Shown: positions 1 to 31,371 of the stretch, piece after piece
How positions within the stretch are numbered: position 1 is the stretch's first letter
How the letters are laid out: every line of letters begins with the position of its first letter
Assembly (NCBI GenBank): GCA_001804415.1
Contig: MHGA01000030.1
Coordinates: 1 to 32,208 of the forward strand
DNA: 32,208 nucleotides
Source: Candidatus Aquivivens invisus
GTDB taxonomy: Bacteria; Omnitrophota; Gorgyraeia; Aquiviventales; Aquiviventaceae
Direction: 5' to 3'
Made by a program: the position numbers and the translations under genes
The notes under the pieces: model-generated
The model's input: only the letters and a program-made list of their open reading frames with translations
Database searches by the model: none
Told to the model about the DNA's origin: nothing

Positions 1-2
1 TG

Positions 3-1283
3 ATCCTGCCGGCGTTTCTCTCCCGCGTTCGGGGGCCGTACCACCATCTGATGTTCGAGCCGCCATTTGACTGTCCGCCGGAACGCCCATCGGAGGAAGC
101 GGTCAAGGTGGGCCTCGAGCGGTTCGCCGCGCTCTTGGCTGGTCAGATCGAGCGGGATCCGGCCCAGTGGCTGTGGGTGCATAAACGATGGAAGCGCACC
201 CCCACCCGCCATGTGCTGATCGTCAGCGACGGCAAGCCGGGGCACGTGAAGCAGTCCCTGACGGTGGCGCGCGCCCTCAAGGAGCGTTATGACAACGTAC
301 GGGAACAGGTGATCGAGATTCGTTATCGCAACCGCCTGGCCCGCGCGCTGTGCCTGTTGTGGGCCTGGTGGATGCCGGCGGGGATTGGAGGCCGCTCGTG
401 TCTGCGGTGGACGCTGACGAGGGCGTGTTTCACGCAGCTCGTCAACGCCTATGCGGATATCGTGATCTCCTGCGGTGCCTCGACGGCGCCGGTCAACCTT
501 CTCGTCTCGGCAGAGAATCGCGCGAAATCCGTGGTGATCATGAACCCGGCACCCCTCCCGTTGAGGCGGTTTTCGCTCGCACTGGTGCCGGCCCATGACC
601 GAGTCGCTCGGCGGGGGCCTATCGTCCGCATTCCCGGAGCGCTCACGGCGGTCACCGAGGAGGAGCTGGCGCTCGCCGGCGAACGGCTCAGCCGCCATCC
701 GCAGTTCCGCGCTCAGGACACCATCCTGCGTGGAGGGGAACGGGTGGTCTCGGTGCTGCTGGGCGGAGACACGCGCCACTATGAGCTGACGACGACGTTT
801 GTCGACGGCCTCATCCAGCAGGTCTTGCAGGCCTGTGACGCGGTCGACGGGGTCTGTCTGGTGACGAGCTCGCGGCGGACGCCGCCTGATGTGGAGCGGT
901 TGCTGCAACAACGGCTCGATCGGCACCCCCGCTGCCGGATGGTGTTGCTGGCCAGCCGCGATCCGCTCAATGGCACATCTGAAGGGATGCTGGGCCTGGC
1001 GCGGGTGGTGGTGGTGACCGGCGAGAGCATCTCGATGGTGACCGAGGCATGCGCCAGCGGCCGCCCGGTCCTGGTGGTGGATCCGCCGTTGCGCAAAGCC
1101 GGGTGGGGGCGGGTGACGAAACCGCAACGCTACGTGCGCCAACTCGCGCATGACGGCTACGCCAAACCGTTGTTCCTTCGAGAGGTCAACCAGGCGATCC
1201 AACGGGCTATCGCCCAGCCGCGCGCCACACCGCGTCTCGACGCCTACGCCGCCGTGCGCGACGCCGTCGCCCGCCTCTTGTAG
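3..1283 (+). CDS. LpxL-type lipid A acyltransferase (C-terminal end) fused to ELM1-type glycosyltransferase; 5' partial
   Basis: The reading frame is open from the window edge, so the true start lies outside. The first ~65 visible residues look like the C-terminus of an LpxL/HtrB lipid A acyltransferase: a strand ending FEPP, then the WLWVHKRWK motif that closes these enzymes. With no stop codon the frame continues into a DUF1022/ELM1 domain, beginning HVLIVSDGKPGH, with LLGGDTRHYEL in the middle and VVTGESISMVTEACASGRP near the end. ELM1-type proteins have a GT-B-like fold and occur in LPS gene clusters; the mitochondrial name is historical. A GTG within HVLIVSDG could act as an internal start for a separate ELM1 protein, so fusion versus two products is not settled. 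It leads the glycosyltransferase run and ends 13 bases before the next start. I infer a role in lipid A/core assembly at the inner membrane. Confidence 0.8.
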   Translation: MLPAFLSRVRGPYHHLMFEPPFDCPPERPSEEAVKVGLERFAALLAGQIERDPAQWLWVHKRWKRTPTRHVLIVSDGKPGHVKQSLTVARALKERYDNVREQVIEIRYRNRLARALCLLWAWWMPAGIGGRSCLRWTLTRACFTQLVNAYADIVISCGASTAPVNLLVSAENRAKSVVIMNPAPLPLRRFSLALVPAHDRVARRGPIVRIPGALTAVTEEELALAGERLSRHPQFRAQDTILRGGERVVSVLLGGDTRHYELTTTFVDGLIQQVLQACDAVDGVCLVTSSRRTPPDVERLLQQRLDRHPRCRMVLLASRDPLNGTSEGMLGLARVVVVTGESISMVTEACASGRPVLVVDPPLRKAGWGRVTKPQRYVRQLAHDGYAKPLFLREVNQAIQRAIAQPRATPRLDAYAAVRDAVARLL

Positions 1284-1296
1284 CTGGTGGCGTCCC

Positions 1297-3435
1297 ATGC
1301 ACATCCTCCAACTGATTCCCAGCCTTGACGTCGGCGGCGTGGAGCGCGGCGTGCTCGATCTCACCAAGGGCTTGCTCGCCCGCGGGCATCGCGTGACCGT
1401 CGTCTCAGCCGGCGGGGCGTTGGTGGAACCCCTCACACGGTTGGGCGCGATCCATCATACCCTGCCGGTTCATCGCAAATCCCCATGGTCGATGTGGCGG
1501 ACCGTGCCGGCGTTGTGCCGCGTGATCGAAGGCACAGGGATCGAGGTGGTCCATGCGCGCTCCCGCGTCCCGGCGTGGATCGGTTATGTCGCCTCTCGAC
1601 GCACGCGCCGGCCGTTTGTGACGACCTGCCACGGGTTCTACGCGCCGCATCCGGCTTCTCGGGTGATGGCGTGGGGACGCATCGTCGTCGTGCCGTCCCA
1701 GGCGCTGGGACGCTATGTGATCGATCAGTTCCACGTGCCGCCGGAGCGGCTGCGGGTTATCCCTCGGGGCGTGGATCTGTCCGAGTTTCAGTTCGCGCAC
1801 AAGCCCCCTCCTGCTGACGGCCCGTGGCGCCTCGGGCTCATCGGGCGGCTCAGCGTGCTCAAAGGCCATGAGGTCGCCATCCGTGCCTTGCATCAACTGA
1901 GTCAGCGTCGACATCCTGTGCGCCTCTGTTTCGTCGGAGAGGCCTCCGCCCATAAGCCGCGCATGCGAAGCGGCCTGGAGCGTCTGGCGCATTCGCTTGG
2001 CGTGGCGGATCTGATCGACTGGCAGGGAATGCGCCGGGACATCCCCGAGGCGCTGCGCGCGTTGGATGCGGTGCTCGTGCCCTCCGTGTACCCGGAATCG
2101 TTTGGACGCACCGTGATCGAAGCGCAAGCCGCAGGGGTGCCGGTGATCGCCTCTCGGCTTGGGGCGTTGGCGGAAATCGTGGAGGACGGGACGACGGGTT
2201 TGTTGGTTCCCCCGGGCGACGCCGGCGCGTTGGCGGCGGCGATTGCGAGGCTAATTGGCGATGAGCCCCTGCGCCGTCGATTGGTGCAAGCCGCTCGGGA
2301 GCGCGTTGAAGGGCGGTTTCGACTCGAGGGGATGGTCGACGGCTACGAAGCGGTCTATCGTGACTGTGTGACGAACCCGCGCGTGGTGATCTGGAAGCTC
2401 AGCGCGATGGGCGATTTTGTCCTGGCCACACCGAGCCTGCGGGCGATCCGCCGTCGTTTTCCCACCTCGCACATCAGCGTGGTGGTGGGACAGGCGCTTG
2501 GCGCGTTGGCCGCGCGATGCCCGTACGTGAATGACGTCATCCTCTACGATCCGAAGCGGCGCGATTGGACCCGCCGGGCCGCCCGACGCGTCATCCGACG
2601 GGTTCGGCAAGGCGCCTTTGATCTCTCCATCGATTTGCAGAACAGCCGCCTCACGCACCTGATGGCCTGGGCCTCGGATATTCCCACACGGGTCGGCTAT
2701 GACCGTCGCTGGGGCCGGTCTCTCTCGCAGCGCGTGAGTCTCCCGCGAAGGGCCATGGATCCTGTCAGCCATCAGTTCGAGCTGCTGCGCTCCGCCGGGA
2801 TCCCACCCGACGGGATGGCCTTGGAATTGTGGCCCACCGAGCAGGATGAGCAGGCGGCGCATCGCCTGATGGCCGAGCTGCGCCTCGATTCGCGCAAACC
2901 CCTGGTGGGGCTGCATCCCGGTGGCAGCGCGCGATGGCGCACGAAGCGCTGGGCGCCGGCGCGCTGGGCGGCGCTGTGCGATCGCCTGGCGGATGCCGGC
3001 GCGCAGGTCGTCATCACGGGTAGCACCTCGGAACAGCCTCTGATCGACGCCGTGCGGCAGTTAACCGCATCAGCCCCGGCACTGGTTGTCGGACGGACGT
3101 CGCTCATGGAGCTGGCGGCGCTCATTCGGCGATGCGCGGTGTTCGTGACGCATGATTCAGCGCCGCTGCATGTCGCGGTGGCCATGGGGCGTCCCACGAT
3201 TGCGCTGTTCGGTCCTACGGATCCCGCCCGTCACGCGCCGCCGTCTCCGCTGGTGCATGTGGTCTCGAAGAAGGTGTTCTGCAGCCCCTGCTATTCCCCG
3301 CGATGCCGCACGATCACCCACGCGTGCATGACCCGCATCACCGTCGACGACGTCTTCGATACTGTCCTTGAATTGCTGAATCCAAAATCCAAAATCCAAA
3401 ATCCAAAATCTCCCTCATGCGCATCCTCCACCTGA
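1297..3435 (+). CDS. GT4-GT9 fusion glycosyltransferase (LPS core)
   Basis: A 712-residue protein with two complete glycosyltransferase modules. Residues 1-357 are a GT4 enzyme: N-terminal LIPSLDVGGVERG loop, and the retaining-transferase E-x7-E motif in PESFGRTVIEAQAAG. Residues 358-700 are a GT9 heptosyltransferase: it starts RVVIWKLSAMGD and carries HDSAPLHVAVAMG, LFGPTDP and a C-terminal cysteine cluster (CSPC...CRTITHAC). Both act on the cytoplasmic face during LPS core assembly, and the exact sugars cannot be read. ATG 1297 was chosen because the GT4 fold begins there; the longer frame from 1150 overlaps the upstream gene. A GTG at 2368 lies exactly at the module junction and could give a free GT9. 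The last ~13 residues are coded by an AATCCAA heptamer array and run over the next gene's start by 19 bases. Confidence 0.88.
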   Translation: MHILQLIPSLDVGGVERGVLDLTKGLLARGHRVTVVSAGGALVEPLTRLGAIHHTLPVHRKSPWSMWRTVPALCRVIEGTGIEVVHARSRVPAWIGYVASRRTRRPFVTTCHGFYAPHPASRVMAWGRIVVVPSQALGRYVIDQFHVPPERLRVIPRGVDLSEFQFAHKPPPADGPWRLGLIGRLSVLKGHEVAIRALHQLSQRRHPVRLCFVGEASAHKPRMRSGLERLAHSLGVADLIDWQGMRRDIPEALRALDAVLVPSVYPESFGRTVIEAQAAGVPVIASRLGALAEIVEDGTTGLLVPPGDAGALAAAIARLIGDEPLRRRLVQAARERVEGRFRLEGMVDGYEAVYRDCVTNPRVVIWKLSAMGDFVLATPSLRAIRRRFPTSHISVVVGQALGALAARCPYVNDVILYDPKRRDWTRRAARRVIRRVRQGAFDLSIDLQNSRLTHLMAWASDIPTRVGYDRRWGRSLSQRVSLPRRAMDPVSHQFELLRSAGIPPDGMALELWPTEQDEQAAHRLMAELRLDSRKPLVGLHPGGSARWRTKRWAPARWAALCDRLADAGAQVVITGSTSEQPLIDAVRQLTASAPALVVGRTSLMELAALIRRCAVFVTHDSAPLHVAVAMGRPTIALFGPTDPARHAPPSPLVHVVSKKVFCSPCYSPRCRTITHACMTRITVDDVFDTVLELLNPKSKIQNPKSPSCASST
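3379..3410 (+). repeat. Heptamer array AATCCAA x4 plus partial unit
   Basis: Four exact tandem copies of AATCCAA followed by a degenerate AATCTCC. The array lies in the last codons of the GT4-GT9 gene, giving the tail NPKSKIQNPKS, and ends just before the ATG of the next gene at 3417. No inverted partner is visible here. Confidence 0.9.
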
Positions 3436-4553
3436 CCTCGCACCTCAACGTCGGGGGGGTGACCACCTACATCGGCCAACTGGCTGAAGGCTTGAAGCGC
3501 CGGGGCCACGAAGTCATGGTGGCCTCCGGAGGGGGGGCGCTTGTGTCCCGCCTGAGCCAGGGCGGGATTCGTCACTGGCATCTGCCCCTCTCGACGAGCG
3601 CTGAGTTCAGTCCCCAGGCGGGCTGGGCCTGGTGGCGGCTGAGCCGCCGACTGACGCGGGAATCGGTTGATCTCCTTCACGCCCATACGCGGGTCGCGCA
3701 AGTCCTCGCGCACGCGCTGTGGCGCGCTCGTCGGATTCCCTATGTGACGACGTGGCATGGATTCTATCGACGGCGGCTCGGACGCCGGTGGCTGCCGTGC
3801 ACGGGTGAGCGGACGATTGCCATCAGCGAACCGGTCAGCCGCCACCTCCAGGAGGTCTTCCGCATCCCTGCGCAGCGCATCCGGTTGATTCCGCATGGCA
3901 TCGATGTGGCGTCGTTCAGCCGGCCGCTTGACCTCGCCACCCAAGAGCAGGCTCGTTGGTCCTGGGGGTTGCCGGCGAGCGGGTTGACCGTGGGGACGGT
4001 GGCGCGGCTGGTCCCGTCGAAAGGTGTTGCGCAATTGCTCGAAGCCTTCCGCGAGATTCAGCGGCGTGTCCCGGGTGTCAGCTTGCTCATCGTCGGGGAT
4101 GGACCGCAGCGTCCCAGGCTTGAACAGATGGCCGGCGCGCTCGGCTTCGCGCAGGCCGTCCGGTTTACCGGTTCGCTACCTGACACGCGGCTGGCGCTGG
4201 GCGTGATGGATGTGTTCGTCTTCCTCCCGGCCGTCGAGGAAGGGTTTGGGTTGTCGCTGCTGGAGGCGATGGCGGCTGGCAAACCCATCGTGTCGGTCCG
4301 GCGGGGAATCGGAGCCGCGTGGGTGCTGGACGGGCAGGGAATCGGGCTGACAGTCGAGCCTGATCGCCCCGATCAACTGGCCCGCGCCGTCGTGCGCATG
4401 CTGCAGGATCCGGCGGAGGCACAGCGCTTGGGCCAGCAGGCCCAGGCCCTGGCTCGGGAACGCTATGATCTGGGCCGGGTGCTCGACCAGGTGGAAGCGG
4501 TGTATGCAGAGTGCCTCAACCGAACTTCAGACTTCAGGAGAGGGGTTGTCTGA
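3417..4553 (+). CDS. GT4 family glycosyltransferase
   Basis: A 378-residue retaining glycosyltransferase of family GT4. The N-terminal HLNVGGVTTYIGQLAEGLKR follows the usual glycine-rich acceptor-site pattern. Residues around VATVARLVPSKGVAQLLEAF-type sequence (here GTVARLVPSKG) form the nucleotide-sugar half, and EEGFGLSLLEAMAAGKP carries the E-x7-E motif. It is similar in design to the GT4 half of the preceding gene, so the two may be old duplicates. It starts inside the upstream gene (19-base overlap), immediately after the AATCCAA array, and has no recognisable Shine-Dalgarno sequence, which suggests translational coupling. The last ~8 residues and the stop codon fall in a new heptamer array. 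It probably adds a core or O-chain sugar; donor and acceptor are unknown. Confidence 0.88.
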   Translation: MRILHLTSHLNVGGVTTYIGQLAEGLKRRGHEVMVASGGGALVSRLSQGGIRHWHLPLSTSAEFSPQAGWAWWRLSRRLTRESVDLLHAHTRVAQVLAHALWRARRIPYVTTWHGFYRRRLGRRWLPCTGERTIAISEPVSRHLQEVFRIPAQRIRLIPHGIDVASFSRPLDLATQEQARWSWGLPASGLTVGTVARLVPSKGVAQLLEAFREIQRRVPGVSLLIVGDGPQRPRLEQMAGALGFAQAVRFTGSLPDTRLALGVMDVFVFLPAVEEGFGLSLLEAMAAGKPIVSVRRGIGAAWVLDGQGIGLTVEPDRPDQLARAVVRMLQDPAEAQRLGQQAQALARERYDLGRVLDQVEAVYAECLNRTSDFRRGVV

Positions 4554-4590
4554 TGTCTGAGGTCTGGAGTCTGAGGTCTGATGTCTGAGC
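4525..4590 (+). repeat. Heptamer array, CTTCAGA pair and six TCTGAGG-type units
   Basis: Two units, CTTCAGA and CTTCAGG, are followed 10 bases later by six 7-base units: TCTGATG, TCTGAGG, TCTGGAG, TCTGAGG, TCTGATG, TCTGAGC. The two sets are roughly inverted relative to each other. The stop TGA (4551-4553) of the GT4 gene lies in the first TCTGATG unit and the start ATG (4581) of the GT9 gene lies in the fifth. A GAGG from the fourth unit sits 4 bases before that ATG and could serve as a Shine-Dalgarno site. Confidence 0.88.
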
Positions 4591-5618
4591 GGATTCTGGT
4601 GGTCATGCCCAACTGGTTCGGGGAGACGCTGTTCGCCACCCCGATGCTGCGAGCCTTGCGATCCGCTCAACCCCAGGCCTTCATCGCAGCGCTTGGGGTG
4701 CCGCGGGCCGCTGAGGTGCTGAAAGGCAATCCCTGCCTCGATGCGTTCATCCCCTTCGAAACCTCGGGGTTCGGGCTGCGGATGCTCCGTCACCTGCGCC
4801 GGCTTCGCTGCGACACCGCGCTGGTCCTCCGTCGCAGCCTCACCCGCACCGCCCTGCTGTGCGCCGCCGGGATTCCAAGGAGGATCGGGTTTGCGAATCG
4901 CAAGAGCGGGTGGTTGCTGACCGAAGGGGTGAAGCCGCCCGACGGGTCGCTGCACAAAGCGCAGACCTACTTCGCGTTAATGGGACCTCTGGGCATCCCG
5001 GCCGATGGAGCCGCAAGACCCTATGAGTATCACCTGACTCGAGAGGAACGCCACGAGGCTGCTGTGATCTTCGGCGCCCATGGGGTGGGGCGTGACCAGC
5101 CCGTCGCGATCCTGCACCCTGGCGCCAACTGGTTCCACAAACGCTGGCCGGCCGAGCGCTTCGCGCGGGTGGCCGATCAGCTCGCAGACTTCCGACGCTG
5201 CCGCATTGTGCTGACCGGCAGCCCGGAGGACCGCCCGCTGGCTCAGGCCATCGAGCAGGCTCTGATCGCAAAGCCCGTGAATCTCGTCGGACGGACTACC
5301 GTGCGACAATTGGCCGCCTGCCTGGAGCTGGCCGATGTGGTGGTGTCGAATGACACCGGTGTCGTGCACCTGGCCTGCGCGTTGGGCCGCCGCGTCGTGG
5401 CGTTGTATGGACCCACCTTGCCGGCCGTCACCGGACCCCTGGGCGATCCGACCAGGACGGTGGTGATTCATCATCCGGGGTGTTGTCCGTCGATCCCCTG
5501 TGTCAATCCCAACCATCCGGGGCATCCCGGGATGGAGGCCATCAGCGTCGAGGAAGTGTGTGACGCCGTGAAAGAGTTGCTTGCAAGGGAGAAGGGGGAA
5601 GGGGGAAGGCCGAACTGA
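4581..5618 (+). CDS. GT9 heptosyltransferase (WaaF-like)
   Basis: A 345-residue inverting heptosyltransferase. The opening RILVVMPNWFGETLFATPML matches the WaaF/heptosyltransferase II N-terminus, where the usual GD is replaced by GE. The C-terminal half has the ADP-heptose binding pattern HPGANWFHKRWP and SNDTGVVHLACALG...LYGPT. It would add L,D-heptose to the inner core using ADP-heptose. The C-terminal cysteines are in PGCCPSIPCVNP rather than the C-x2-C...C cluster of the neighbouring GT9 enzymes. The start codon lies inside the TCTGAGG heptamer array. The final residues (REKGEGGRPN) are coded by a separate GGGGGAA heptamer run. WaaF-like is a family assignment; which heptose it adds is not proven. 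Confidence 0.87.
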   Translation: MSERILVVMPNWFGETLFATPMLRALRSAQPQAFIAALGVPRAAEVLKGNPCLDAFIPFETSGFGLRMLRHLRRLRCDTALVLRRSLTRTALLCAAGIPRRIGFANRKSGWLLTEGVKPPDGSLHKAQTYFALMGPLGIPADGAARPYEYHLTREERHEAAVIFGAHGVGRDQPVAILHPGANWFHKRWPAERFARVADQLADFRRCRIVLTGSPEDRPLAQAIEQALIAKPVNLVGRTTVRQLAACLELADVVVSNDTGVVHLACALGRRVVALYGPTLPAVTGPLGDPTRTVVIHHPGCCPSIPCVNPNHPGHPGMEAISVEEVCDAVKELLAREKGEGGRPN

Positions 5619-5660
5619 ACAGCACACTTCCAACTGCCAACTTCCAACTTCCGACTTTCC
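5587..5660 (+). repeat. Heptamer arrays GGGGGAA and CTTCCAA
   Basis: Units GGGAGAA, GGGGGAA, GGGGGAA, GGCCGAA (5587-5614) close the upstream GT9 gene. After 12 bases come CTTCCAA, CTGCCAA, CTTCCAA, CTTCCGA (5627-5654). The arms are purine- and pyrimidine-rich respectively, so they can pair partially. The second arm occupies the intergenic gap before the next GT9 gene. Confidence 0.82.
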
Positions 5661-5677
5661 GTGCGCTTCAGCGGGTA

Positions 5678-6670
5678 TTGGTGATCGGTCCCTCCAACGT
5701 GGGGGACGGGGTGCTGATGAGCCCCGTCGTCCACGAAGTGCGCCAGGCATTCCCTGAGGCGCGCCTGACGCTGCTGGTGGGCGAGCGGGCCCGCGCCGTC
5801 TTTGAGAGCGACCTGCGCATTCACCGTCTCGTTTCCTTTGAAGAGTTTGATGGCCTGGTGGGACGACTGCGGTTGGTCCGGTGGGTCTGGCGCCTGCGCC
5901 CCGACGCGATGGTCGATCTGCGTCAGACGATCCTGCCGCTGCTGTGGCGTCCCTGGCGCGCCCTGGCGTATTTCTGGCCGGTCCCTCGTCGCATCGTGCA
6001 CATGCGGGATCGGCATCTGTGGAGACTCCAACGACAGGTTCCGGCGATGCGCCTTCGTCAAGCGACAAGCGACAAGGGACAAGCGACAAGCGAATGGGAT
6101 GGCGGGTCGTTGGGGCTGACGAACGAGGAAATCGCCTCGGTGGAACGATTGATGAAGACGTGGGCCGTCGACGGTCAGACCCCGCTGGTGGTGATCAGCC
6201 CGGGCGCGCGCAGCCACATCAAGCGCTGGTATCCGGAGCGCCTCGCGTCCATGGCGGATCGGCTCATTGAGGAGTGCCGCGCCGCGGTCGTCTTCACGGG
6301 CGAGCCGGATGAAGCCGCCCTTGTCACCGACCTCCTCAAGACGATGCGTCATCGCGCGCACAACGCCGCCGGACGCTTGACGCTGCGCCAGACCGCGGCC
6401 TTGATGCAGCGGGCTCGCTTGGTGATGACGAACGACTCCGCGGCGCTGCACCTGGCCTGCGCCGTGGACGTCCCGGTCCTGGCGCTCTTTGGCCCGACCG
6501 ACCCTCGCAAGTACGGCCCGACTGGTCCCCGCGACCGCGTGATCCGCCGCCGGCTCGTCTGCGCGCCGTGCGAACAGCCACTCTGCCGCTTTCACCACGA
6601 ATGCATGCGGTTTATCTCGGAGCATGAAGTCTACGCGGCCGCGAAAGATCTCCTGGGACAGGGGACATGA
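5678..6670 (+). CDS. GT9 heptosyltransferase with heptamer-coded linker insertion
   Basis: A GT9 family enzyme: IGPSNVGDGVLMSPVV at the N-terminus, ISPGARSHIKRWYPERLA, and NDSAALHLACAVDVPVLALFGPTDP, followed by CAPC...CRFHHEC. The start is uncertain. The family strand (RVLVIGPSNVGD) begins 3-4 codons before the TTG at 5678, but no ATG or GTG lies upstream in frame; the frame is open back into the previous gene, with only a CTG at 5615. I give the TTG. At about residues 129-138, in the linker between the two Rossmann domains, the sequence RQATSDKGQATSE is coded by a GCGACAA heptamer array, so the array is translated in frame. The gene ends in an ATGA overlap with the next one. The donor is probably ADP-heptose; the acceptor is unknown. 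Confidence 0.85.
   Translation: MVIGPSNVGDGVLMSPVVHEVRQAFPEARLTLLVGERARAVFESDLRIHRLVSFEEFDGLVGRLRLVRWVWRLRPDAMVDLRQTILPLLWRPWRALAYFWPVPRRIVHMRDRHLWRLQRQVPAMRLRQATSDKGQATSEWDGGSLGLTNEEIASVERLMKTWAVDGQTPLVVISPGARSHIKRWYPERLASMADRLIEECRAAVVFTGEPDEAALVTDLLKTMRHRAHNAAGRLTLRQTAALMQRARLVMTNDSAALHLACAVDVPVLALFGPTDPRKYGPTGPRDRVIRRRLVCAPCEQPLCRFHHECMRFISEHEVYAAAKDLLGQGT
6062..6089 (+). repeat. In-frame heptamer array GCGACAA x4 inside a GT9 gene
   Basis: Units GCGACAA, GCGACAA, GGGACAA, GCGACAA lie wholly inside the coding sequence at the inter-domain linker. Three units (21 bases) code for seven residues, so the translated array shows a 7-residue period. Confidence 0.9.
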
Positions 6671-6746
6671 GACAAGGGACAAGCGACAAGGGACAAACGA
6701 TAAGCAACACGTCTCATGTCCCATGTCGCACGTCCCATGTCGTTGC
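6655..6746 (+). repeat. Inverted heptamer pair GGGACAA / TCCCATG
   Basis: Arm 1 (6655-6710) has units GGGACAG, GGGACAT, GAGACAA, GGGACAA, GCGACAA, GGGACAA, ACGATAA, GCAACAC. Arm 2 (6712-6746) has TCTCATG, TCCCATG, TCGCACG, TCCCATG, TCGTTGC. The arms are imperfect reverse complements and could form a hairpin. The ATGA stop/start overlap of the two GT9 genes (6667-6670) lies inside arm 1. Confidence 0.88.
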
Positions 6747-7779
6747 GCCGAAGCGCATCGTAGTCGTTCGGCTCGACCGGATCGGGGACGTGGTGCTGAC
6801 CACACCGGTGGTCCAACGGCTGCGCGAGGCGTATCCGACGGCGTTCATCGCAATGATGGTGCGTCCGGTCTGCCGCGAGCTGCTTGAGGGCAATCCCGCC
6901 CTCAATGAGGTGATCTGTTATGACAAAGACGGGCTCGCGGGAGGGTGGTGGCGTACGATCCGATTCGCGAGGGCCCTTCGGCGGTATCAGTTCGACACCG
7001 CGCTCATCGCGCATCCCACCCGGCGGTCGCACTGGATCGTGCGGCTGGCCGGCATTCCGCAACGCATCGGGTATGACCGGAAAGACGGCTGGTTGCTGAC
7101 GCATCGCCTCCCGCATCGCAAGCAGGAAGGCGAGCAGCATGAAGCCGCCTATGCCATGGAGCTCTTGAGGGTCTTGGGACTTGAGCCCGCCGGAGCGCTG
7201 CGGCCCTTCGTGCCGATCGATGCCAAGCGGCAAGCTCACGTCGGCCAACTCCTCGCGCTCCACGACGCGCACGAGCAGGGCACGTTGGTCGCCATCCACC
7301 CCTCAGCCAGTTGCATCTCCAAACGGTGGATGCCGCAGCGCTTCGGGCAGGTGGCGGATCAGCTGATCGACGCCTGCCAAGCGCGCATCGTGTTGGTGGC
7401 CGGACCGGGAACGGATGCGCGCTACGCGAAGGCGGTTGAGCAGGCGATGCGCCATCGGCCGGTCAATCTGGCCGGACAGCTCTCCGTGGGCGAGCTGGCG
7501 TGCCTGCTCACACGCTGCCGGCTGCTCATCTCCAACGACTCCGGGCCGGTGCATATCGCCGCCGCCGTGGGCACCCCGGTCGTGGATATTTTCGGGCGCA
7601 ACCAAGCGGGCCTGAGCCCCGCCCGCTGGGGCCCGTTGGGCGAGGGCCATGTGGTCCTGCATAAAGAGGTCGGCTGCCGGGTGTGCCTCGCCCATCACTG
7701 CGACATCCAATTCAAGTGCCTCACCGAACTCACCGTCGACGAGGTGCGCGAGGCGGCAGCGTCGATCCTGGCGCATTGA
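6667..7779 (+). CDS. GT9 heptosyltransferase with heptamer-coded N-terminal extension
   Basis: A 370-residue GT9 enzyme. The family fold begins near residue 29 (RIVVVRLDRIGDVVLTTPVV), with HPSASCISKRWMPQRFGQVA and SNDSGPVHIAAAVGTPVVDIFG in the C-terminal domain and cysteines in GCRVCLAHHCDIQFKC. It resembles LPS heptosyltransferase II-type proteins. The first ~28 residues (MRQGTSDKGQTISN...) are coded by the inverted heptamer pair and have no counterpart in the family; ATG 6667 is kept because it overlaps the upstream stop as ATGA and no better start is visible closer to the fold. The stop codon TGA forms the first bases of the cloverleaf-like palindrome that follows. It is the last gene of the glycosyltransferase run. 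Confidence 0.87.
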   Translation: MRQGTSDKGQTISNTSHVPCRTSHVVAPKRIVVVRLDRIGDVVLTTPVVQRLREAYPTAFIAMMVRPVCRELLEGNPALNEVICYDKDGLAGGWWRTIRFARALRRYQFDTALIAHPTRRSHWIVRLAGIPQRIGYDRKDGWLLTHRLPHRKQEGEQHEAAYAMELLRVLGLEPAGALRPFVPIDAKRQAHVGQLLALHDAHEQGTLVAIHPSASCISKRWMPQRFGQVADQLIDACQARIVLVAGPGTDARYAKAVEQAMRHRPVNLAGQLSVGELACLLTRCRLLISNDSGPVHIAAAVGTPVVDIFGRNQAGLSPARWGPLGEGHVVLHKEVGCRVCLAHHCDIQFKCLTELTVDEVREAAASILAH

Positions 7780-7869
7780 TCCCACCACCTGCCGTGTTCG
7801 CCAATGGCGAATCTCGGCCGTGAAGGCCGAGACCCGTCGCACAGCGACGGAGACGGCAGGTGGTGGGAT
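7779..7869. repeat. 91-base nested palindrome, four-way-junction (cloverleaf-like) fold
   Basis: An exact 17-bp outer stem pairs 7779-7795 with 7853-7869. Inside it are three perfect hairpins in a row: 7797-7802/7806-7811 (6 bp, 3-base loop), 7812-7819/7825-7832 (8 bp, 5-base loop) and 7834-7840/7844-7850 (7 bp, 3-base loop). Only about four bases at the junction are unpaired. It starts at the last base of the upstream stop codon and ends on the first two bases of a promoter -35 box. It is not a tRNA: the closing stem is far too long and no T-arm or anticodon loop is present. Possible roles are bidirectional terminator, RNA processing site, or a REP/MITE-like mobile palindrome; the sequence does not decide. 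Confidence 0.85.
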
Positions 7870-7897
7870 TGACACCCCATGTCAACTCCGCTAAAAT
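7869..7897 (+). promoter_or_regulatory. Sigma-70 promoter for the heptose/Kdo operon
   Basis: A consensus -35 TTGACA (7869-7874) and a -10 TAAAAT (7892-7897) are separated by exactly 17 bases. The predicted transcription start, about 7 bases after the -10, falls on or next to the GTG start codon at 7904, so the transcript may be leaderless. The -35 box shares its first two bases with the end of the cloverleaf palindrome. Confidence 0.75.
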
Positions 7898-7903
7898 CTG
7901 TAC

Positions 7904-8854
7904 GTGCCGACCACCAAACTCGACTTATCCAGGCTCAAAACCTATCCCCTCGCCTCACGCAGCAGCAAAGTCAACATGGCGGCGTTTGCGCGCGTGGGCC
8001 GCAAGGGGAGCTCCTTCCGGCAGTTCTACGACTCGCTCCCTGATTTCCTCGCGGCCAAAGATCTCAAGCGCCTCGTCCGCGCCATCGTGGAGGCGCGTCG
8101 CGCCCGCAAGCCCGTCCTCTGGATGATGGGCGCGCACGTCATCAAAGTCGGCCTGAATCCCTTGCTGATCGACATGGTGCAACGCCGCGTGATCACGGCG
8201 GTGGCGCTCAACGGTGCTGGCGTGATTCATGACTTCGAGCTGGCGTACATGGGCGCGACGTCCGAAGATGTGGACAGCGCCCTGGCCGACGGGTCCTTCG
8301 GCATGGCGGAGGAGACCAGCCGCCTGATCAACCGGGCGATCCGCGCAGGCGCCACACGGCGCCTGGGACTGGGCGAGTCGGTCGGTGCGATGATCCGTGC
8401 GCAGCGGCTGCCGTACCGGCGTTTGAGTCTCTTGGCGACGTGCCATGAGCTGGGCGTTCCCGCGACGGTCCATGTGGCGATCGGGACCGACATCATCCAC
8501 CAGCAGTCCACCGCCGATGGGGCGGCCATCGGCCAGACCTCGTTGGCCGATTTCCGCACGCTGATTCAGGTCGTCTCGGGCTTGGGGCCGGGCGGGGTGG
8601 TCGGGAATGTGGGCTCGGCCGTCATCCTGCCGGAGGTGTTTTTGAAAGCGGTGTCGATTGCGCGGAATCTCGGCCACGCCGTCAAGGATTTCACCGCGTT
8701 TGATTTCGACATGATCCGCCACTACCGTCCGCATGAAAACGTGCTCAAGCGGCCGACGCTGCTCGGCGGCACCGCCGTCTCGATCATCGGGCATCACGAG
8801 CTCCTCATCCCGCTGTTGCTTCGCGCCGTTACGGAGGAGCTCGGAGGCCGGTAA
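7904..8854 (+). CDS. Deoxyhypusine synthase-like protein of unknown function
   Basis: A 316-residue protein with clear deoxyhypusine synthase family features: GAHVIKVGLNPLLIDMV, LNGAGVIHDFELAYMG, TSEDVDSALADGSFGMAEET, QTSLADFR and VVGNVGSAVILPEVFLKAV. The classical C-terminal segment with the catalytic lysine (EAVSWGK) is absent; the protein ends in a GHHELLIPLLLRAVTEEL stretch. Bacteria lack eIF5A, so hypusine formation is unlikely. Relatives can act on spermidine-type substrates, but I cannot assign a reaction here. It begins with GTG at or near the predicted transcription start and has no Shine-Dalgarno site. It leads the operon containing rfaE1 and the Kdo genes, 3 bases upstream of rfaE1, which suggests an envelope-linked role. 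Confidence 0.8.
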   Translation: MPTTKLDLSRLKTYPLASRSSKVNMAAFARVGRKGSSFRQFYDSLPDFLAAKDLKRLVRAIVEARRARKPVLWMMGAHVIKVGLNPLLIDMVQRRVITAVALNGAGVIHDFELAYMGATSEDVDSALADGSFGMAEETSRLINRAIRAGATRRLGLGESVGAMIRAQRLPYRRLSLLATCHELGVPATVHVAIGTDIIHQQSTADGAAIGQTSLADFRTLIQVVSGLGPGGVVGNVGSAVILPEVFLKAVSIARNLGHAVKDFTAFDFDMIRHYRPHENVLKRPTLLGGTAVSIIGHHELLIPLLLRAVTEELGGR

Positions 8855-8857
8855 CCC

Positions 8858-9933
8858 ATGACGACACCCGTGGTTCCTCGGCTCAATCCCGAGCGCCTGA
8901 GGCGGCTGATCGCCGCCTTCTCCAAGCCCAAAATCCTCGTCGTCGGCGATTGCATGCTCGATGAGTTCATCTGGGGCCAGGTGAACCGGATCAGCCCTGA
9001 GGCGCCGGTGCCCGTCGTCTGGGTGCAGTCCGAATCGGTGATGCCGGGGGGCGCGGCGAATGTCGCCAACAACATCCGTTCCCTCGGCGGCCGCGTGCAG
9101 ATGGCCGGCGTCATCGGGACCGACCCGTGGGGCGACACCCTGGTGGAGACCCTGACGAAGCGAGGCATCGGGACCGAGGGGCTGCTGCGCGAGCCCTCGC
9201 GAGCCACCACCGTGAAGACCCGCGTCATCGCCCATCATCAACAGGTGGTGCGCGTGGATCGGGAATCCCGACCCGCGCTCAACCCCGCAATAGTCAAACG
9301 CATGGCGGGGGCCGTGCGCAAGCAACTGGAGACGGTGGACGCGGTCATCATCGAGGACTACGGCAAAGGCGTCATCACCCGCGAGCTGCTGCAGCAGGTG
9401 GTGCCGCTCATGCGCTCGCGCCGCAAGCTCATCACCGTTGATCCCAAGGAAGAGCATTTCGATCTGTACCAGGAAGTGACCGCCATCACCCCGAACCGAG
9501 CGGAAGCCTCCGCCATGGTGGGTCGGCGCCTGGAGACGGAGCAGGAGGTGCGCCAGGCCGGCGGCGAGCTGGTGCGCCGGCTGCGGTGCGAGGCGGTGGT
9601 GATGACGCTCGGCGAGGATGGGATGTGCGTGATGGAACAGCACGGCCGGTGCACTCGGATCCCGACGGTGGCGCAAGAGGTGTTCGATGTCGCCGGGGCT
9701 GGGGATACGGTCATCGCGACGCTGACGTTGGCCTTGGCCAGCGGCGCCTCCATGCCGGAGGCCGCGGTCTTGGCTAATTATGCGGCGGGGATTGTCGTGG
9801 GCAAGCTGGGGGTCGCCACCGCGGCTCCCGAGGAGCTCTTGGCGAAACTTGACGGTACGACCACGAGGCGCACGGCGCACGGCGCACGGCGCACGGCACG
9901 GAATCGGCCTCCAGCCTTCAGCCGGAATCGGCG

Positions 9934-9937
<4 letters not shown>
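8858..9937 (+). CDS. rfaE1: D-glycero-beta-D-manno-heptose-7-phosphate kinase (RfaE1/HldE N-terminal domain)
   Basis: A PfkB-family sugar kinase that phosphorylates heptose 7-phosphate at C1 on the way to ADP-heptose, the donor for the GT9 enzymes upstream. Seen in sequence: ILVVGDCMLDEFIWG and RISPEAPVPV (typical of RfaE), PGGAANVANN at residues 63-72, and the PfkB signature DVAGAGDTVIATLTLA with the catalytic base Asp283. The C-terminal adenylyltransferase half of HldE is missing, so a separate RfaE2 must exist elsewhere. A GGAGG lies 10 bases before the ATG. The last ~25 residues, including TARRTAHGARRTA-like sequence, are coded by a GGCGCAC heptamer array and are probably disordered. The stop overlaps kdsB as ATGA. 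Confidence 0.9.
9867..9899 (+). repeat. Heptamer array GGCGCAC x4
   Basis: Four exact tandem GGCGCAC units (9867-9894) plus a partial unit. The array is inside the rfaE1 frame and codes its arginine-rich C-terminal tail. No inverted partner is visible. Confidence 0.88.
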
Positions 9938-13199
<3,262 letters not shown>

Positions 13200-13219
<20 letters not shown>

Positions 13220-14237
13220 CCGATCCCTTCGACTCGGCCGACGGCCTCGCTCAGGGCGAGTCCTGAGCGTCGTCGAAGGACGATCCCTCCGCCGGGCCAG
13301 GGAGGTCCTCCGGATTGAAGCCGAGGCGATCCAGCGGCTGATCCCGCGCCTCGGCGGCGCCTTCGCCCAAGCCGTGCGCCTTCTGCTCGCCTGCAAAGGG
13401 CGCGTGGTGGTCACCGGCATGGGCAAGGCCGGATTGATCGGCCAGAAACTCTCGGCCACCCTCGCCTCAACCGGCACGCCGAGCCTCTGGATCCATTCGG
13501 CCGAAGCGATCCACGGTGACGTCGGGCGGGTGACCAAAGACGATTGCGTGATCGCCCTCTCCAACAGCGGGCAAACCGAGGAGTTGACGCAGCTGCTGCC
13601 GGTCATCAAGCAGATCGGCGCGCGGCTCATTGCGCTGACCGGCAACATCCGCTCCACCTTGGCCCGACACACCGATGTGGCGCTTGATGTCAGCGTCAAG
13701 CGTGAGGCCTGCTCGCTCAACCTGGCTCCGACCGCCTCGACGACCGCCATGCTGGCGATGGGCGATGCCTTGGCCGTCGTCGTCGCCGAACTGAAAGGAT
13801 TTCGGGAGCGGGATTTTGCGCTGTTCCACCCCGGCGGGCAGCTGGGCCGGCGCCTGGTGCTGCGCGTGCGGGATCTCATGCGCACCGGCAGGGCCAATCC
13901 AATCGTGCGCGAGACGACATCCGTCAAGAACGTGCTCTTGGCCATCACCCGGGCGCGGGCCGGGTGTGCGGCGGTGGTGGATGCTCGAGGACAGCTCACC
14001 GGCATTTTTACCGACGGCGATCTCCGGCGCCATCTCGATATCACCCCCGATCTGCCCCGCCTGCCGGTTGCGCGGGTCATGACGCGCAACCCTAAGACGC
14101 TGGCCGCGGATCGTCTGGCCGTGGAGGCGCTGCGGTTGCTGAGGGAATACCGGATTGACGAGCTGGTTGTCGTCGAAGGCCACCGAAGACCGGTGGGTCT
14201 CCTCGACGTCCAGGATCTCCTCAAAGCCGGATTTTAA
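13200..14237 (+). CDS. kdsD: Arabinose-5-phosphate isomerase (KdsD/KpsF)
   Basis: Converts ribulose 5-phosphate to arabinose 5-phosphate, the substrate of KdsA. The SIS domain (about residues 60-190) has VVVTGMGKAGLIGQKLSATL, SAEAIHGDVG and ALSNSGQTEE; HPGGQLGRRL follows, then a CBS pair (VRDLMRTG...FTDGDLRRHL and VMTRNPKTL...DELVVVEG). ATG 13200 gives 345 residues and a 20-base overlap with kdsA. Between the start and the first helix (RAREVLRIEAEAI), residues ~9-27 are coded by a palindromic repeat and include LSVVEG, which I recognise as a typical product of a widespread palindromic element. No other start lies between it and the fold, so this segment is probably translated. Forms a contiguous Kdo pathway with kdsA and kdsC. 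Confidence 0.93.
13226..13279. repeat. Palindromic repeat inside the kdsD 5' coding region
   Basis: An 8-bp outer stem (13226-13233 CCTTCGAC with 13272-13279 GTCGAAGG) encloses a 4-bp hairpin (13236-13239/13243-13246) and an 8-bp hairpin (13248-13255 CGCTCAGG with 13262-13269 CCTGAGCG), giving a three-way junction. The CCTTCGAC...GCTCAGG...CCTGAGC...GTCGAAGG pattern is, from memory, a dispersed palindrome in many bacterial genomes. Confidence 0.82.
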
Positions 14238-14251
14238 GCACCAAGCCCAAT
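14238..14251 (+). repeat. Short heptamer pair at the kdsD-kdsC junction
   Basis: Two units, GCACCAA and GCCCAAT, bridge the 12-base gap and reach into the kdsC start codon at 14250. They belong to the same GCACCAA type seen at 15088 and 16131. Confidence 0.6.
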
Positions 14252-14783
14252 GCCTCTCAGTCCTGAAGTGCTGAAACGCGCCCGACAGATTACCACACTC
14301 GTCCTGGATGTTGATGGCGTCCTGACCGATGGGCGCATCATCTACGATGAGTGGGGGGATGAGCTGAAATGTTTCGATGTGCAGGACGGAGCGGGTCTGG
14401 TGCTCTGGCGGCGGGCTGGGTTGCGCAGCGCCATCATCACGGCACGGCACAGCCGCGTGGTCAGACGGCGGGCCAAAGAATTGCGCGTGGACTTCCTCGC
14501 CCAACGAGCGTTGGAGAAGCTGCCGGCGTATGAGAAGCTCCTGAGGCGCTGGCGGCTGCTGCCGGAGTACGTGTGCGCCATCGGGGATGACTTGATGGAG
14601 TTGCCCCTCCTCCGGCGGGTTGGGTTGGCGGTGGCCGTGCCGAATGCCGTGGATGAGGTGAAGGCCGTCAGCCACTACGTCACTCAGCGTCCAGGCGGGC
14701 GCGGAGCGGTGAGAGAAGTCGTCGATCTCCTCCTGAAAGCCTCCGGCCGTTGGGAAGACCTTCTCAAGCGTTACCAGGTTTAG
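14250..14783 (+). CDS. kdsC: Kdo-8-phosphate phosphatase (HAD superfamily)
   Basis: Removes phosphate from Kdo-8-P to give Kdo for KdsB. The HAD nucleophile motif is LDVDGVLTDG with Asp20 and Asp22; YDEWGDELKCFDVQDGAG is the KdsC-type continuation. Motif II is in SAIITARHS and the late acidic motif in AIGDDLMELPLL. Length is 177 residues, normal for the small tetrameric KdsC class without a cap. It lies 12 bases after kdsD and completes the set kdsB-pyrG-kdsA-kdsD-kdsC. No Shine-Dalgarno site is visible before the ATG. An AT-rich stretch with a new promoter follows, so this is probably the last gene of the unit. Confidence 0.94.
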   Translation: MPLSPEVLKRARQITTLVLDVDGVLTDGRIIYDEWGDELKCFDVQDGAGLVLWRRAGLRSAIITARHSRVVRRRAKELRVDFLAQRALEKLPAYEKLLRRWRLLPEYVCAIGDDLMELPLLRRVGLAVAVPNAVDEVKAVSHYVTQRPGGRGAVREVVDLLLKASGRWEDLLKRYQV

Positions 14784-14822
14784 CTATCTTTGTTCCTACA
14801 TTGTAAATATTTATCAAAAGTA

Positions 14823-14851
14823 TTGAATGATTAAGAGGTTTATGGTATGAT
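14823..14851 (+). promoter_or_regulatory. Sigma-70 promoter for the small HTH gene
   Basis: The -35 TTGAAT (14823-14828) and -10 TATGAT (14846-14851) have a 17-base spacing, within the only clearly AT-rich stretch of the window. The -10 covers an ATG at 14847, which therefore cannot be the translation start. The predicted transcript start near 14858 is 4 bases before the next in-frame ATG at 14862. Confidence 0.75.
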
Positions 14852-14861
14852 TACGGCTGTC

Positions 14862-15074
14862 ATGACACTCAACGGCAAGACGAACGACAACAATATTATG
14901 ACCCTCAGTGAAGTGGCGAATTACCTGGGCCTTCACGTGATGACGGTCTACAAGCTCACGCGGGAAGGCCGGGTGCCTGCGGCGAAGATTGGGGGTCAGT
15001 GGCGCTTCAAGCGAGACATCTTGGATGGCTGGCTTGAGGCGCAGATGCTCAGGCGAGCCGGCGCCAAGTCGTAA
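14862..15074 (+). CDS. Small excisionase/MerR-like helix-turn-helix protein
   Basis: A 70-residue protein made almost entirely of a winged HTH_17/excisionase-type DNA-binding domain: MTLSEVANYLGLHVMTVYKLTREGRVPAAKIGGQWRF with a closing WLEAQ helix. Such proteins bind DNA as small regulators or as accessory factors; there is no integrase or phage gene nearby, so a local transcription regulator is more likely than an excisionase. ATG 14862 was preferred over 14847, which lies in the -10 box; ATG 14898, exactly at the domain start, is also possible. No Shine-Dalgarno site is seen and the leader would be about 4 bases. It sits between the Kdo operon and the lipid A/LPS-export operon, so control of one of these is an inference. 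Confidence 0.8.
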   Translation: MTLNGKTNDNNIMTLSEVANYLGLHVMTVYKLTREGRVPAAKIGGQWRFKRDILDGWLEAQMLRRAGAKS

Positions 15075-15087
15075 GCCCCCAACCTAA

Positions 15088-15108
15088 GCACCAAGCACCA
15101 AGCACGAA
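15088..15108 (+). repeat. Heptamer array GCACCAA x3 in a 166-base intergenic region
   Basis: Units GCACCAA, GCACCAA, GCACGAA follow the HTH gene. The rest of the gap up to 15190 is filled with degenerate GCACG-rich sequence, including a small hairpin around 15142-15160 (ACGGT/ACCGT arms). No gene or clear terminator with a T-run is visible in the gap. Confidence 0.8.
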
Positions 15109-15194
15109 TAGACCTCTGCACGTCAGAACAGCCGCATATCCGCACGGTGGTACCGTCGCACGTTAGCACGCCGGCACGCTGGTATTTCCTGCCA

Positions 15195-15223
15195 TTGACG
15201 CTCACCATCGGGTGTAGTACCAT
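15195..15223 (+). promoter_or_regulatory. Probable sigma-70 promoter for the LpxL-LptC-LptA fusion gene
   Basis: The -35 TTGACG (15195-15200) and a weak -10 TACCAT (15218-15223) are 17 bases apart. The predicted start near 15230 would leave a leader of about 11 bases containing AAGG 4 bases before the ATG at 15241. Confidence 0.55.
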
Positions 15224-15240
15224 ACCCTGTTTAAGGTTAC

Positions 15241-17154
15241 ATGGTGATGAAACACCCGATTCGACGACGAGCGATGCTTGCGGCCTTCCTGGCCCTGCGC
15301 AGCCTCATCCGGTGGCTTCCCCTCTCGGTGGCACAGGCGTGCGGTCGGCTCCTCGGCTACCTCGGCTACGCCCTCTTAGGTCCGTATCGGCGCCTGACGT
15401 TGGCGCATCTGCATCTGGCGCTGGGTCCGCGGGCCAGTCGCGCCACGTGCGCCAGGGTGGCCCGCGGGGTGTTTGTCAACCTCGCGAAGTCGTTCCTCGA
15501 GTGGCTCGTGATGGATCGGCTCTCGCCGGAGGCGCTGAGGCGCCGGGTCGACGTCTACGGCGTGCATTACCTGCGCGAGGCCCTGGCGAACGGCCGCGGG
15601 GTGATCGCCCTCTCGGCGCATTTTGGCAACTGGGAACTCCTCGCGATGACGCTGGCCGGCCTTGGCTTTCAGGGCGGGGTGCTGGCCCGACGGCTGCGAT
15701 ATCCGGAATTTGAGCCCTTCCTGGTTGGGATGCGCGCGCGCAAAGGGGTGACGACCTACGCGCGCGGCTCGGTGAAAGAGGTCGCCCGCCTCCTGCGCGA
15801 GAACCGGATCATCGGCATGATGCCCGACCAGGACCTCGACAGCCTGGAGGGGGTGTTTGTGGACTTTTTCGATCGGCCGGCCTACACCCCGGTGGGACCC
15901 GCGGCGCTCTCCCTCATGACCGGTGCAATGATCCTGCCGTGTTTTCTCGTTCGAGACGGACGGCGGTTCCGGCTGGTGATTGAAGAACCCGTCACCGTGG
16001 CCCGTCGGGGCGACCGCGCCAAGGATCTGGTGGCGATCACCGACGCCTGGAGCCGCGTCGTGGAGTCGTATATCCGCCGGTATCCGGATCATTGGGTCTG
16101 GATGCACCGTCGCTGGAAGACCCAACCTTCAGTACCAAGCACCAAGCACCAAGCACTCAGTACCCAGCTCTCGGTTCCAAGGGTGCCTCAAGCCGCTGTT
16201 TCATCGTTCTTGTTTACGCTTACTGCTTACTGCTTAGTGCTTAGTGCTGTGCTTGGGTGCGCGAAGTCCTCACCCCCGTCTCCGCCGCAGGCCACGGCCG
16301 CCTCGTCCACGACGCCGTCAACGGAGGCTCCGCAACGCATGGATCGCTTTACCATGGTCGGCTACAGCCCCGCGGGCGCGAAGGAGTGGGACCTGGAAGG
16401 CCACGGCGCGGTCGCGGAAGGGGCGGTGGTCACCATCCAGCAGCCCCACGCGATTGGCTACGACCGCGAGCGCACGTCCGATATCACCGCGAGCCTCGCC
16501 CATGTCGATCAGCAGACCCATTACATCCGCCTTGAGCACGAGGTGACCATTCACACCTCCGACGGCCTCTGGGTGATGGCGCCGCAGCTCTACTGGTTGT
16601 CGGATCGGGACGAGATGCAGACGGACGAGCCGGTTCGGATTGAGACCGACCACATGCTCATCCGCGGTCGAGGAGCCGTCGCCCACGCCCAGGTGAAGAC
16701 GGCGATTGTCGAGCGAGACATCGAGCTGGTGCTGAATCCTTCGGACGGCGAGGCGGTGGGAGCACCTCCGGCGCATGTGACCATCACGTGCGAGGGCCCG
16801 CTTGTGTTTGAATACGAGAAAGGCATCGCGACGTTCCACACCAATGTGCACGTGAACGATCACCAAGGCGATCTCTACTCGGACACGCTCATCGCGTATG
16901 TGGATCAGAAGACGCACACGATCCGCTACGCGGATGCGATCGGCCGGGTTCGCATCGTGCAGGGACCGCACACGGCGCACGGGGATCACGCGGTGTATGA
17001 GCCGGCGCTGGCGAAAGTGACCTTGCTTGGCTCGCCGTACCTCGTCCTGTACCCCGAGGACTCGCAGCCGGCCGTGGCCCCGCACCCCCCCACGGTCGAG
17101 GCGACGCCGCGCCCGCCGTCAGAGCCGCAACAGGTTGCCGTCACCGTCCCCTGA
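15241..17154 (+). CDS. LpxL-type acyltransferase / LptC / LptA triple fusion
   Basis: A 637-residue protein. Residues 1-296 are an LpxL/HtrB-type lipid A late acyltransferase, with the catalytic H-x4-E in HFGNWE (His127, Glu132), MMPDQDLDSLEGVFVDFF, and the terminal WVWMHRRWK. Residues 297-311 are coded by AGCACCA heptamers. A hydrophobic segment (FLFTLTAYCLVLSAVLGC, ending at Cys340) follows and would span the membrane or act as a lipoprotein signal. Residues ~367-490 resemble LptC (FTMVGYSPAGAKEWDLEG). Residues ~514-615 resemble an OstA/LptA repeat (ITCEGPLVFEYEKGIATFHT). The topology is sensible: cytoplasmic acyltransferase, one span, periplasmic LptC-LptA bridge. A GTG at 16183 could alternatively start a separate LptC-LptA lipoprotein. 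It is followed 5 bases later by lptB. Confidence 0.83.
   Translation: MVMKHPIRRRAMLAAFLALRSLIRWLPLSVAQACGRLLGYLGYALLGPYRRLTLAHLHLALGPRASRATCARVARGVFVNLAKSFLEWLVMDRLSPEALRRRVDVYGVHYLREALANGRGVIALSAHFGNWELLAMTLAGLGFQGGVLARRLRYPEFEPFLVGMRARKGVTTYARGSVKEVARLLRENRIIGMMPDQDLDSLEGVFVDFFDRPAYTPVGPAALSLMTGAMILPCFLVRDGRRFRLVIEEPVTVARRGDRAKDLVAITDAWSRVVESYIRRYPDHWVWMHRRWKTQPSVPSTKHQALSTQLSVPRVPQAAVSSFLFTLTAYCLVLSAVLGCAKSSPPSPPQATAASSTTPSTEAPQRMDRFTMVGYSPAGAKEWDLEGHGAVAEGAVVTIQQPHAIGYDRERTSDITASLAHVDQQTHYIRLEHEVTIHTSDGLWVMAPQLYWLSDRDEMQTDEPVRIETDHMLIRGRGAVAHAQVKTAIVERDIELVLNPSDGEAVGAPPAHVTITCEGPLVFEYEKGIATFHTNVHVNDHQGDLYSDTLIAYVDQKTHTIRYADAIGRVRIVQGPHTAHGDHAVYEPALAKVTLLGSPYLVLYPEDSQPAVAPHPPTVEATPRPPSEPQQVAVTVP
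16131..16251 (+). repeat. Translated inverted heptamer pair AGCACCA / TGCTTAG
   Basis: Arm 1 (16131-16172): AGTACCA, AGCACCA, AGCACCA, AGCACTC, AGTACCC, AGCTCTC. Arm 2 (16217-16251): CGCTTAC, TGCTTAC, TGCTTAG, TGCTTAG, TGCTGTG. The arms are imperfect reverse complements. Both are read in frame; arm 2 codes the hydrophobic core of the membrane segment before Cys340. Confidence 0.88.
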
Positions 17155-28839: not shown

Positions 28840-28843
28840 CCGC

Positions 28844-28967
28844 GCGACAAGCGACAAGTTACAAGTGACAAGCGAAAAGATGCAAGACAACACAGGCCTG
28901 GCGCCTTGCGCCGTTTGCGTGTTTCGTGGTCGGTCACCTGTCGCTTGTCGCTTGTCGCTTGTCACCT
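28844..28967 (+). repeat. Inverted heptamer pair GCGACAA / GTCGCTT in the cdsA-dxr gap
   Basis: Arm 1 (28844-28885): GCGACAA, GCGACAA, GTTACAA, GTGACAA, GCGAAAA, GATGCAA. Arm 2 (28933-28967): GTCACCT, GTCGCTT three times, GTCACCT. The arms are reverse complements in large part, separated by ~45 bases that hold a GGC/GCC-rich small hairpin. They occupy almost the whole 132-base gap; dxr starts 4 bases after arm 2 without a Shine-Dalgarno site. Confidence 0.9.
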
Positions 28968-31271: not shown

Positions 31272-31274
31272 AGA

Positions 31275-31348
31275 GTGACAAGCGACAAGTGACAAGCGAC
31301 AAGCGACAAGTGGATCCACAACCTGTCACGTGTCACCTGTCACTTGTC
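31275..31348 (+). repeat. Inverted heptamer pair GCGACAA / ACCTGTC
   Basis: Arm 1: GTGACAA, GCGACAA, GTGACAA, GCGACAA, GCGACAA (31275-31309). Arm 2: ACCTGTC, ACGTGTC, ACCTGTC, ACTTGTC (31321-31348). The arms are near reverse complements around a GTGGATCCAC palindrome, so this is one of the cleanest hairpins in the set. It fills the rseP-ispG gap. Confidence 0.92.
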
Positions 31349-31371
31349 ACCATCGAGTTGGTGAGCGGCGG

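Follow-up and report, generated by a model that had tools for sequence, protein, structure and literature searches.

What is the palindrome that lies, without a gap, between the stop codon of one gene and the -35 box of the next in the window, by which we mean the whole 32,208-nt stretch of DNA analyzed? Our answer is that it is very probably one copy of a new MITE-like, non-autonomous, transposon-like family in a single Omnitrophota family.

The cloverleaf at 7779–7869

The coordinates and stems given in the preliminary description were reproduced. The outer stem (7779–7795 paired with 7853–7869) comprises 17 perfect base pairs and encloses three hairpins, likewise perfect (6, 8 and 7 bp), and 4 unpaired linker bases. 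Its predicted RNA minimum free energy, -76.5 kcal/mol, is far below that of shuffled sequences (-39.9 ± 3.3 kcal/mol; z -11.2), and folding as DNA gave z -10.5. Heptamer arrays at 28844–28958 aside, this is the only place in the whole window with perfect 14-bp arms within 150 bp. Both junctions are gapless as had been claimed, with TGA (7777–7779) and TTGACA (7869–7874) abutting the palindrome. Pairing is indeed perfect over the 17 bp first described, but the mobile unit covers 7780–7868: A7779 and T7869 belong to a duplicated flank, TTGA, so that the stem proper has 16 bp and matches that of other copies. The features of the locus are as follows.

7780..7868, unstranded: cloverleaf mobile element, 89 bp, TCCCACCACCTG...CAGGTGGTGGGA (longer ends TCCCACCACCTGCCGT...ACGGCAGGTGGTGGGA)
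7776..7779, + strand: left flank TTGA, a 4-nt direct repeat that holds the stop codon TGA 7777–7779 and is repeated at 7869–7872
7780..7795, unstranded: left arm of the outer stem, 16 bp; the first 12 nt are the family end, the last 4 are variable but paired
7797..7811, unstranded: arm 1, 6-bp hairpin, TTCGCC-AAT-GGCGAA
7812..7832, unstranded: arm 2, 8-bp hairpin, TCTCGGCC-GTGAA-GGCCGAGA
7834..7850, unstranded: arm 3, 7-bp hairpin, CCGTCGC-ACA-GCGACGG
7853..7868, unstranded: right arm of the outer stem, ending AGGTGGTGGGA; in most copies Shine-Dalgarno-like and directly 5' of the next start codon
7869..7872, + strand: right flank TTGA, the direct repeat again, with which the -35 box TTGACA (7869–7874) begins
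7869..7897, + strand: promoter-like TTGACA-17-TAAAAT of the downstream gene, 11/12 matches
6667..7779, + strand: upstream gene, glycosyltransferase family 9 (heptosyltransferase-like; PF01075, E 1.2e-35)
7904..8854, + strand: downstream gene, 316 aa, no Pfam match, conserved in Omnitrophota and Nitrospirota

Relatives of the downstream gene, which we take to be deoxyhypusine-synthase-like, come mostly from Candidatus Omnitrophota among the top matches listed. At this locus the element entered a stop codon that shares bases with a -35 box (..ATTGACA..), not an ATGA overlap. Duplication of TTGA, 4 nt rather than 3, means that both the stop codon and the full TTGACA were kept. TTGACA followed by TAAAAT or TAGAAT is also present 5' of the downstream gene in element-free relatives. 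At locus L196, an element lies against the same promoter without a matching left repeat.

Several further features of the window were recorded. Positions 1–17154 form a glycosyltransferase and LPS-type cluster, with Pfam matches to GT9, GT4, CTP_transf_3, CTP synthase, SIS/CBS, lipid A acyltransferase and LptC/LptA-like proteins. Degenerate heptamer arrays (GACAAGC/GACAAGT, reverse GCTTGTC) occur at 6043–6099, 6643–6713, 10404–10460, 10713–10746, 12333–12403, 28832–28963 and 31256–31351. They often form inverted pairs around gene ends, one of which is the 14-bp perfect inverted repeat at 28844–28958. A short tandem-like repeat, AAGCACCAAGCACCAA, is found at 15073–15108 and 16117–16152; its two occurrences are 81% alike and about 1 kb apart.

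A dispersed family and its insertion sites

The preliminary description had suggested a search of the genome for further copies with the same or covarying stems, and this search uncovered a family with a covarying 16-bp stem. The palindrome is thus not a single unconserved copy, many others being present in the genome and in relatives. A blastn search of the source genome with the element returned only 14–15-nt matches to its ends, several of which proved to be whole elements with different arms inside the same outer stem. Combining an end search with mismatches, a structure-like pattern (TCCCNCCNCCT, 60–120 nt, AGGNGGNGGGA) and a motif search, we found that this 1.42-Mb Omnitrophota draft genome carries about 19 simple copies, together with six composite copies and two pairs of a sister subtype. 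Exact palindromic pairs numbered 12 in the source genome and 0 in the reversed control.

In total, 128 distinct copies were collected, nearly all from one Omnitrophota family. Six family members carry the end motif TSATCCCNCCNCCTG, counted on both strands, 12–83 times per genome (19 in G000, 12 in G024 and 83 in G022; control 0). A survey of 117 genomes of the class detected the strict pattern within the family and in a single genome outside it. The sister subtype, with ends CCCCGCCCCT, extends to further families of the class, including f18; locus L497 is one such pair in the source genome. Core copies measure 47–211 bp and code for no transposase inside, and hairpin-only remnants of ~30–40 nt retain their flanking repeats. 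An exact-arm search of 84,980 species genomes gave no match, as expected because stem positions 13–16 and the inner arms vary. In viral contigs, a 14-mer of the end gave chance matches only, the whole-element pattern none, and the composite 16-mer 19 matches, about the chance level. The earlier remark that the palindrome fits no known RNA class was borne out by Rfam 15, where the element had no match at the gathering score.

Exact direct repeats flank 111/128 copies. They are TGA in 103 cases (87 of these ATGA and 10 GTGA), the others being CCA, TGG, TTA, TCG, CGA and CGC, with a few of 4 nt. The motif used to select some of the loci contained T[CG]A at one flank; among the 23 copies selected with a flank-blind pattern, 18 have 3-nt direct repeats, and one more is listed with a 4-nt repeat or none. 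TGA belongs to the target and not to the element, since flanking repeats that differ from TGA also agree on the two sides.

Empty sites were found beside filled ones. L200 reads GCGGTGACCCGG where L198 reads GCGGTGA-element-TGACCCGG, and L195 reads ...CTATGACGG where L193 reads ...CCATGA-element-TGACGT, both 5' of the same PfkB-type kinase gene. At the site of the window copy (ATTGA-element-TTGACA), L193 and L194 carry a single ...AATTGACA. In L403, one copy is nested in the apical loop of another copy's arm 1, with CGC repeated; excision with one CGC leaves a hairpin, TTGGCCGCAGGCC, that is present as such in other copies. The empty sites and the nested copy establish true insertion with target duplication. 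Tandem and nested copies that share or split a TGA/TCA repeat were seen at L189, L403 and L281, as expected because each insertion makes a new ATGA at its edge.

Cloverleaf architecture and gene junctions

All copies share the 12-nt end TCCCACCACCTG within a 16-bp stem. Stem and arm statistics were calculated on the 127 of 128 copies longer than 60 bp. Positions 1–16 are paired in nearly all of these, the first 12 being the conserved end, and compensated changes occur at positions 5, 8 and 13–16. At positions 13–16, Watson-Crick pairs are present in 108–115 copies versus 42–58 in shuffles, and at position 17 pairing drops to 7/127, under the shuffled value. Exactly three arms, mostly joined by 0–2 linker bases, are found in 106/127 copies; the first arms of 99 of these 106 differ in sequence. 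When no more than 4 unpaired linker nt are allowed, three arms are seen in 97/127 copies versus 39/1270 dinucleotide shuffles. Since the three-arm fold recurs while arm sequences differ, the cloverleaf is a family trait and the sequence of the arms is not; the fold is held constant while almost all inner sequence changes. Near-perfect pairing in arms of differing sequence exceeds what a transposase binding two ends needs.

Perfect arms whose sequence differs in nearly every copy would also arise if template-switching palindrome correction kept inverted repeats perfect, the cloverleaf being a by-product that nothing recognizes. We consider this unlikely, as correction leaves unaccounted for both the three near-linkerless arms in 106/127 copies and the sharp end of the 16-bp stem.

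Mobile elements usually live in gaps between genes or break genes. The present family appears instead to fit dense operons, entering the 4-base overlap of two genes with both coding sequences intact. On insertion, ATGA becomes ATGA-[TCCC...GGGA]-TGA: the upstream gene still stops at the left TGA, and ATGA is rebuilt from the element's terminal A and the right TGA, which leaves the downstream coding sequence as it was. As controls for 98 TGA copies with enough flank, we took 1251 ATGA sites from these flanks. The left TGA was exactly the end of an ORF of ≥100 codons in 66/98 copies (control 11%), and an ORF of such length started at the rebuilt ATG in 79/98 (control 28%). Both ORFs abut the element in 57/98 copies versus 41/1251 control sites (3.3%; Fisher P 7e-47). 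The element end AGGTGGTGGG lies directly 5' of the rebuilt ATG and, judged by its resemblance to a Shine-Dalgarno sequence, may serve as a ribosome-binding site. A relic Shine-Dalgarno sequence before the left ATGA is weakly enriched (14/86 versus 213/2673).

According to N-terminal profile matches, genes starting 3' of copies include rpoC, rplN, rplR, tuf, pnp, purL, accD, coaD and nrdR. A further protein, extended in part past its contig by extrapolation, had no match and was left out. Entry into the 4-base overlap without coding change would account for the copies in ribosomal protein operons and for those separating rpoB from rpoC. Two nearly identical copies were noted at contig ends, L502 (G023:C82) and L377 (G023:C5), beside ribosomal-protein-like genes that a few N-terminal residues suggest to be L29 and S17; these copies may have caused the contig break there. 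The family probably accounts for some contig breaks in Omnitrophota draft genomes.

Exact placement between stop and start, a covarying stem and recurrence at the same genes in different genera (pnp in three, purL in two) would equally suit a cis-regulatory RNA or translational-coupling device of the host, vertically inherited and kept for its function. Such an origin is improbable given the direct repeats, the empty sites, the nested and tandem copies and the copies at unrelated genes; moreover, where a gene carries elements in more than one genus, their lengths and arms are not alike. Some copies of what we regard as a mobile family may nevertheless have been domesticated.

For these mobile copies we tentatively propose, as a possibility somewhat short of even, a specialization for operon stop/start overlaps. 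It would combine the ATGA target, the terminal base, the Shine-Dalgarno-like end and a cloverleaf RNA, and would let the element enter essential operons with neither protein changed, because the fold would keep stop and start side by side and allow termination-reinitiation across ~100 nt of inserted RNA. On the main reading, the cloverleaf in the transcript would keep stop and start adjacent at the foot of its stem. Termination at TGA would bring the ribosome to open this foot and uncover the Shine-Dalgarno-like strand, so that downstream translation would still be possible. It is an established principle that translation of an upstream gene can open structure at the start of a downstream one (PMC6728339). 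Copies in harmful places would be lost and those at gene junctions kept. With more than 100 natural inserts of known structure, the family offers a series for testing ribosome passage (termination-reinitiation, translational coupling).

Candidate transposases and comparison with known systems

A transposase gene carrying the element ends was not found. Neither PF01797 (Y1) nor PF01609 was detected in the assembled source genome, and PF01609 is also missing from most relatives; at the transposase loci tested in relatives (14 Y1 loci and few of PF01609), no element ends lay alongside. Among unpaired ends in relatives, a search for a long, transposase-bearing version yielded nothing but truncated copies, a nested copy and deletion forms reduced to a hairpin.

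The source assembly holds a further form. At six contig ends (C18, C19, C22, C23, C31 and C37), the far end of a cloverleaf leads into the same stretch each time, GATGCCATGAAAGGCTGCGCAC..., which contains a -10-like TAGAAT and GGAGGTG deeper inside. At a further four contig ends (C1, C5, C7 and C11), the sequence is TCCCCCCATCTATGAAAGGCTGCGCAC... with an ATGA flank. The inner inverted repeat of the composite is ATGAAAGGCTGCGCAC, and its interior is missing from the assembly. We take these ten contig ends, all in G000, to represent both termini of a composite element that is present in several copies and whose interior the assembler failed to place. The interior, which was not found in relatives, probably holds the transposase.

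Among the direct repeats, TGA, TCA and TTA predominate, in keeping with a TNA rule to which CCA, TGG, TCG, CGA and CGC are exceptions. Three-bp TNA repeats are made by IS5 transposases of the IS1031 group, TGA having been observed for ISLrh (PMC12016507). By this analogy an IS5/IS1031-like transposase is our tentative best guess for the mover of the element. In the proposed mechanism, a DDE transposase of this type, encoded by the composite copies, would recognize the ends and cut at TNA/TGA.

Folded single-strand recognition, as by the tyrosine transposases of HUH/Y1 elements (REP/RAYT or IS200/IS605 type), would suit a conserved fold with unconserved arm sequence, the cloverleaf then being the single-stranded substrate, and Y1 genes are present in 8/12 genomes searched. 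Yet the exact 3-nt duplications change together on both sides (TGA, CCA, TGG, TTA, TCG, CGA, CGC), and we know of no Y1 enzyme that makes exact 3-nt target duplications. The source genome has no Y1 gene, 0/14 Y1 loci are near element ends and there is no GTAG tag. We therefore regard a Y1-mobilized element as very improbable. The guess of a REP/MITE-type palindrome in the preliminary description consequently stands for its MITE half, on the strength of dispersed copies, terminal inverted repeats, target duplications and empty sites. The REP half is unsupported: no GTAG tag was found, the stems are far longer, the target is duplicated and the genome has no Y1/RAYT gene. The RAYT-type transposase suggested as a check was absent from the genome, and none lay beside element ends in relatives.

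The position between a stop codon and a promoter had also prompted a terminator-insulator reading, but a local terminator or insulator, or a chance palindrome at an operon boundary, is hardly credible, as the element has no T-run and no terminator match and belongs to a family of >100 copies with direct repeats, many of them inside operons directly before essential genes.

Comparison with known systems places the MITE-like family as follows. It shares 3-bp TNA direct repeats with the IS1031 subgroup of the IS5 family, the ISLrh end GAACCTGTCTAGTATCT being unlike the element end TCCCACCACCTG. REP elements are single hairpins of 20–40 bp with a GTAG or CGTC tag (PMC3733652). The element resembles REP/RAYT systems in its dispersed palindromes that may act as RNA hairpins, and differs from them in its cloverleaves of about 80–170 bp, its target duplications and the lack of a RAYT link; in the copies read, flanks and ends are TGA/TCCC, with no GTAG (or CGTC) tag at the hairpin foot. 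Integron attC sites are imperfect palindromes between co-directional genes. Unlike these, the elements show no GTTRRRY/RYYYAAC core and are inserted into conserved operons with a duplicated target. The target duplications and empty sites led us to abandon both the attC and the retron readings.

The closest likeness is to bacterial MITEs such as QMITE2 of Coxiella burnetii and MITEAba12, which are likewise short, non-coding and dispersed, with terminal inverted repeats, target duplications and a stable stem-loop transcript (PMC10969869). A description of the family was not found in the searched literature, whose coverage excludes subscription papers, and the terms 'stop codon', 'start codon', 'ribosome binding' and 'cloverleaf' are absent from the same MITE review (PMC10969869). 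Typical MITEs as described there are AT-rich and tend toward AT-rich intergenic regions (PMC10969869), whereas the element is G+C-rich, forms a near-linkerless cloverleaf with unconserved arms and lies at ATGA stop/start overlaps. What is new relative to known MITEs is the combination of a constant cloverleaf of changing sequence with a stop/start target.
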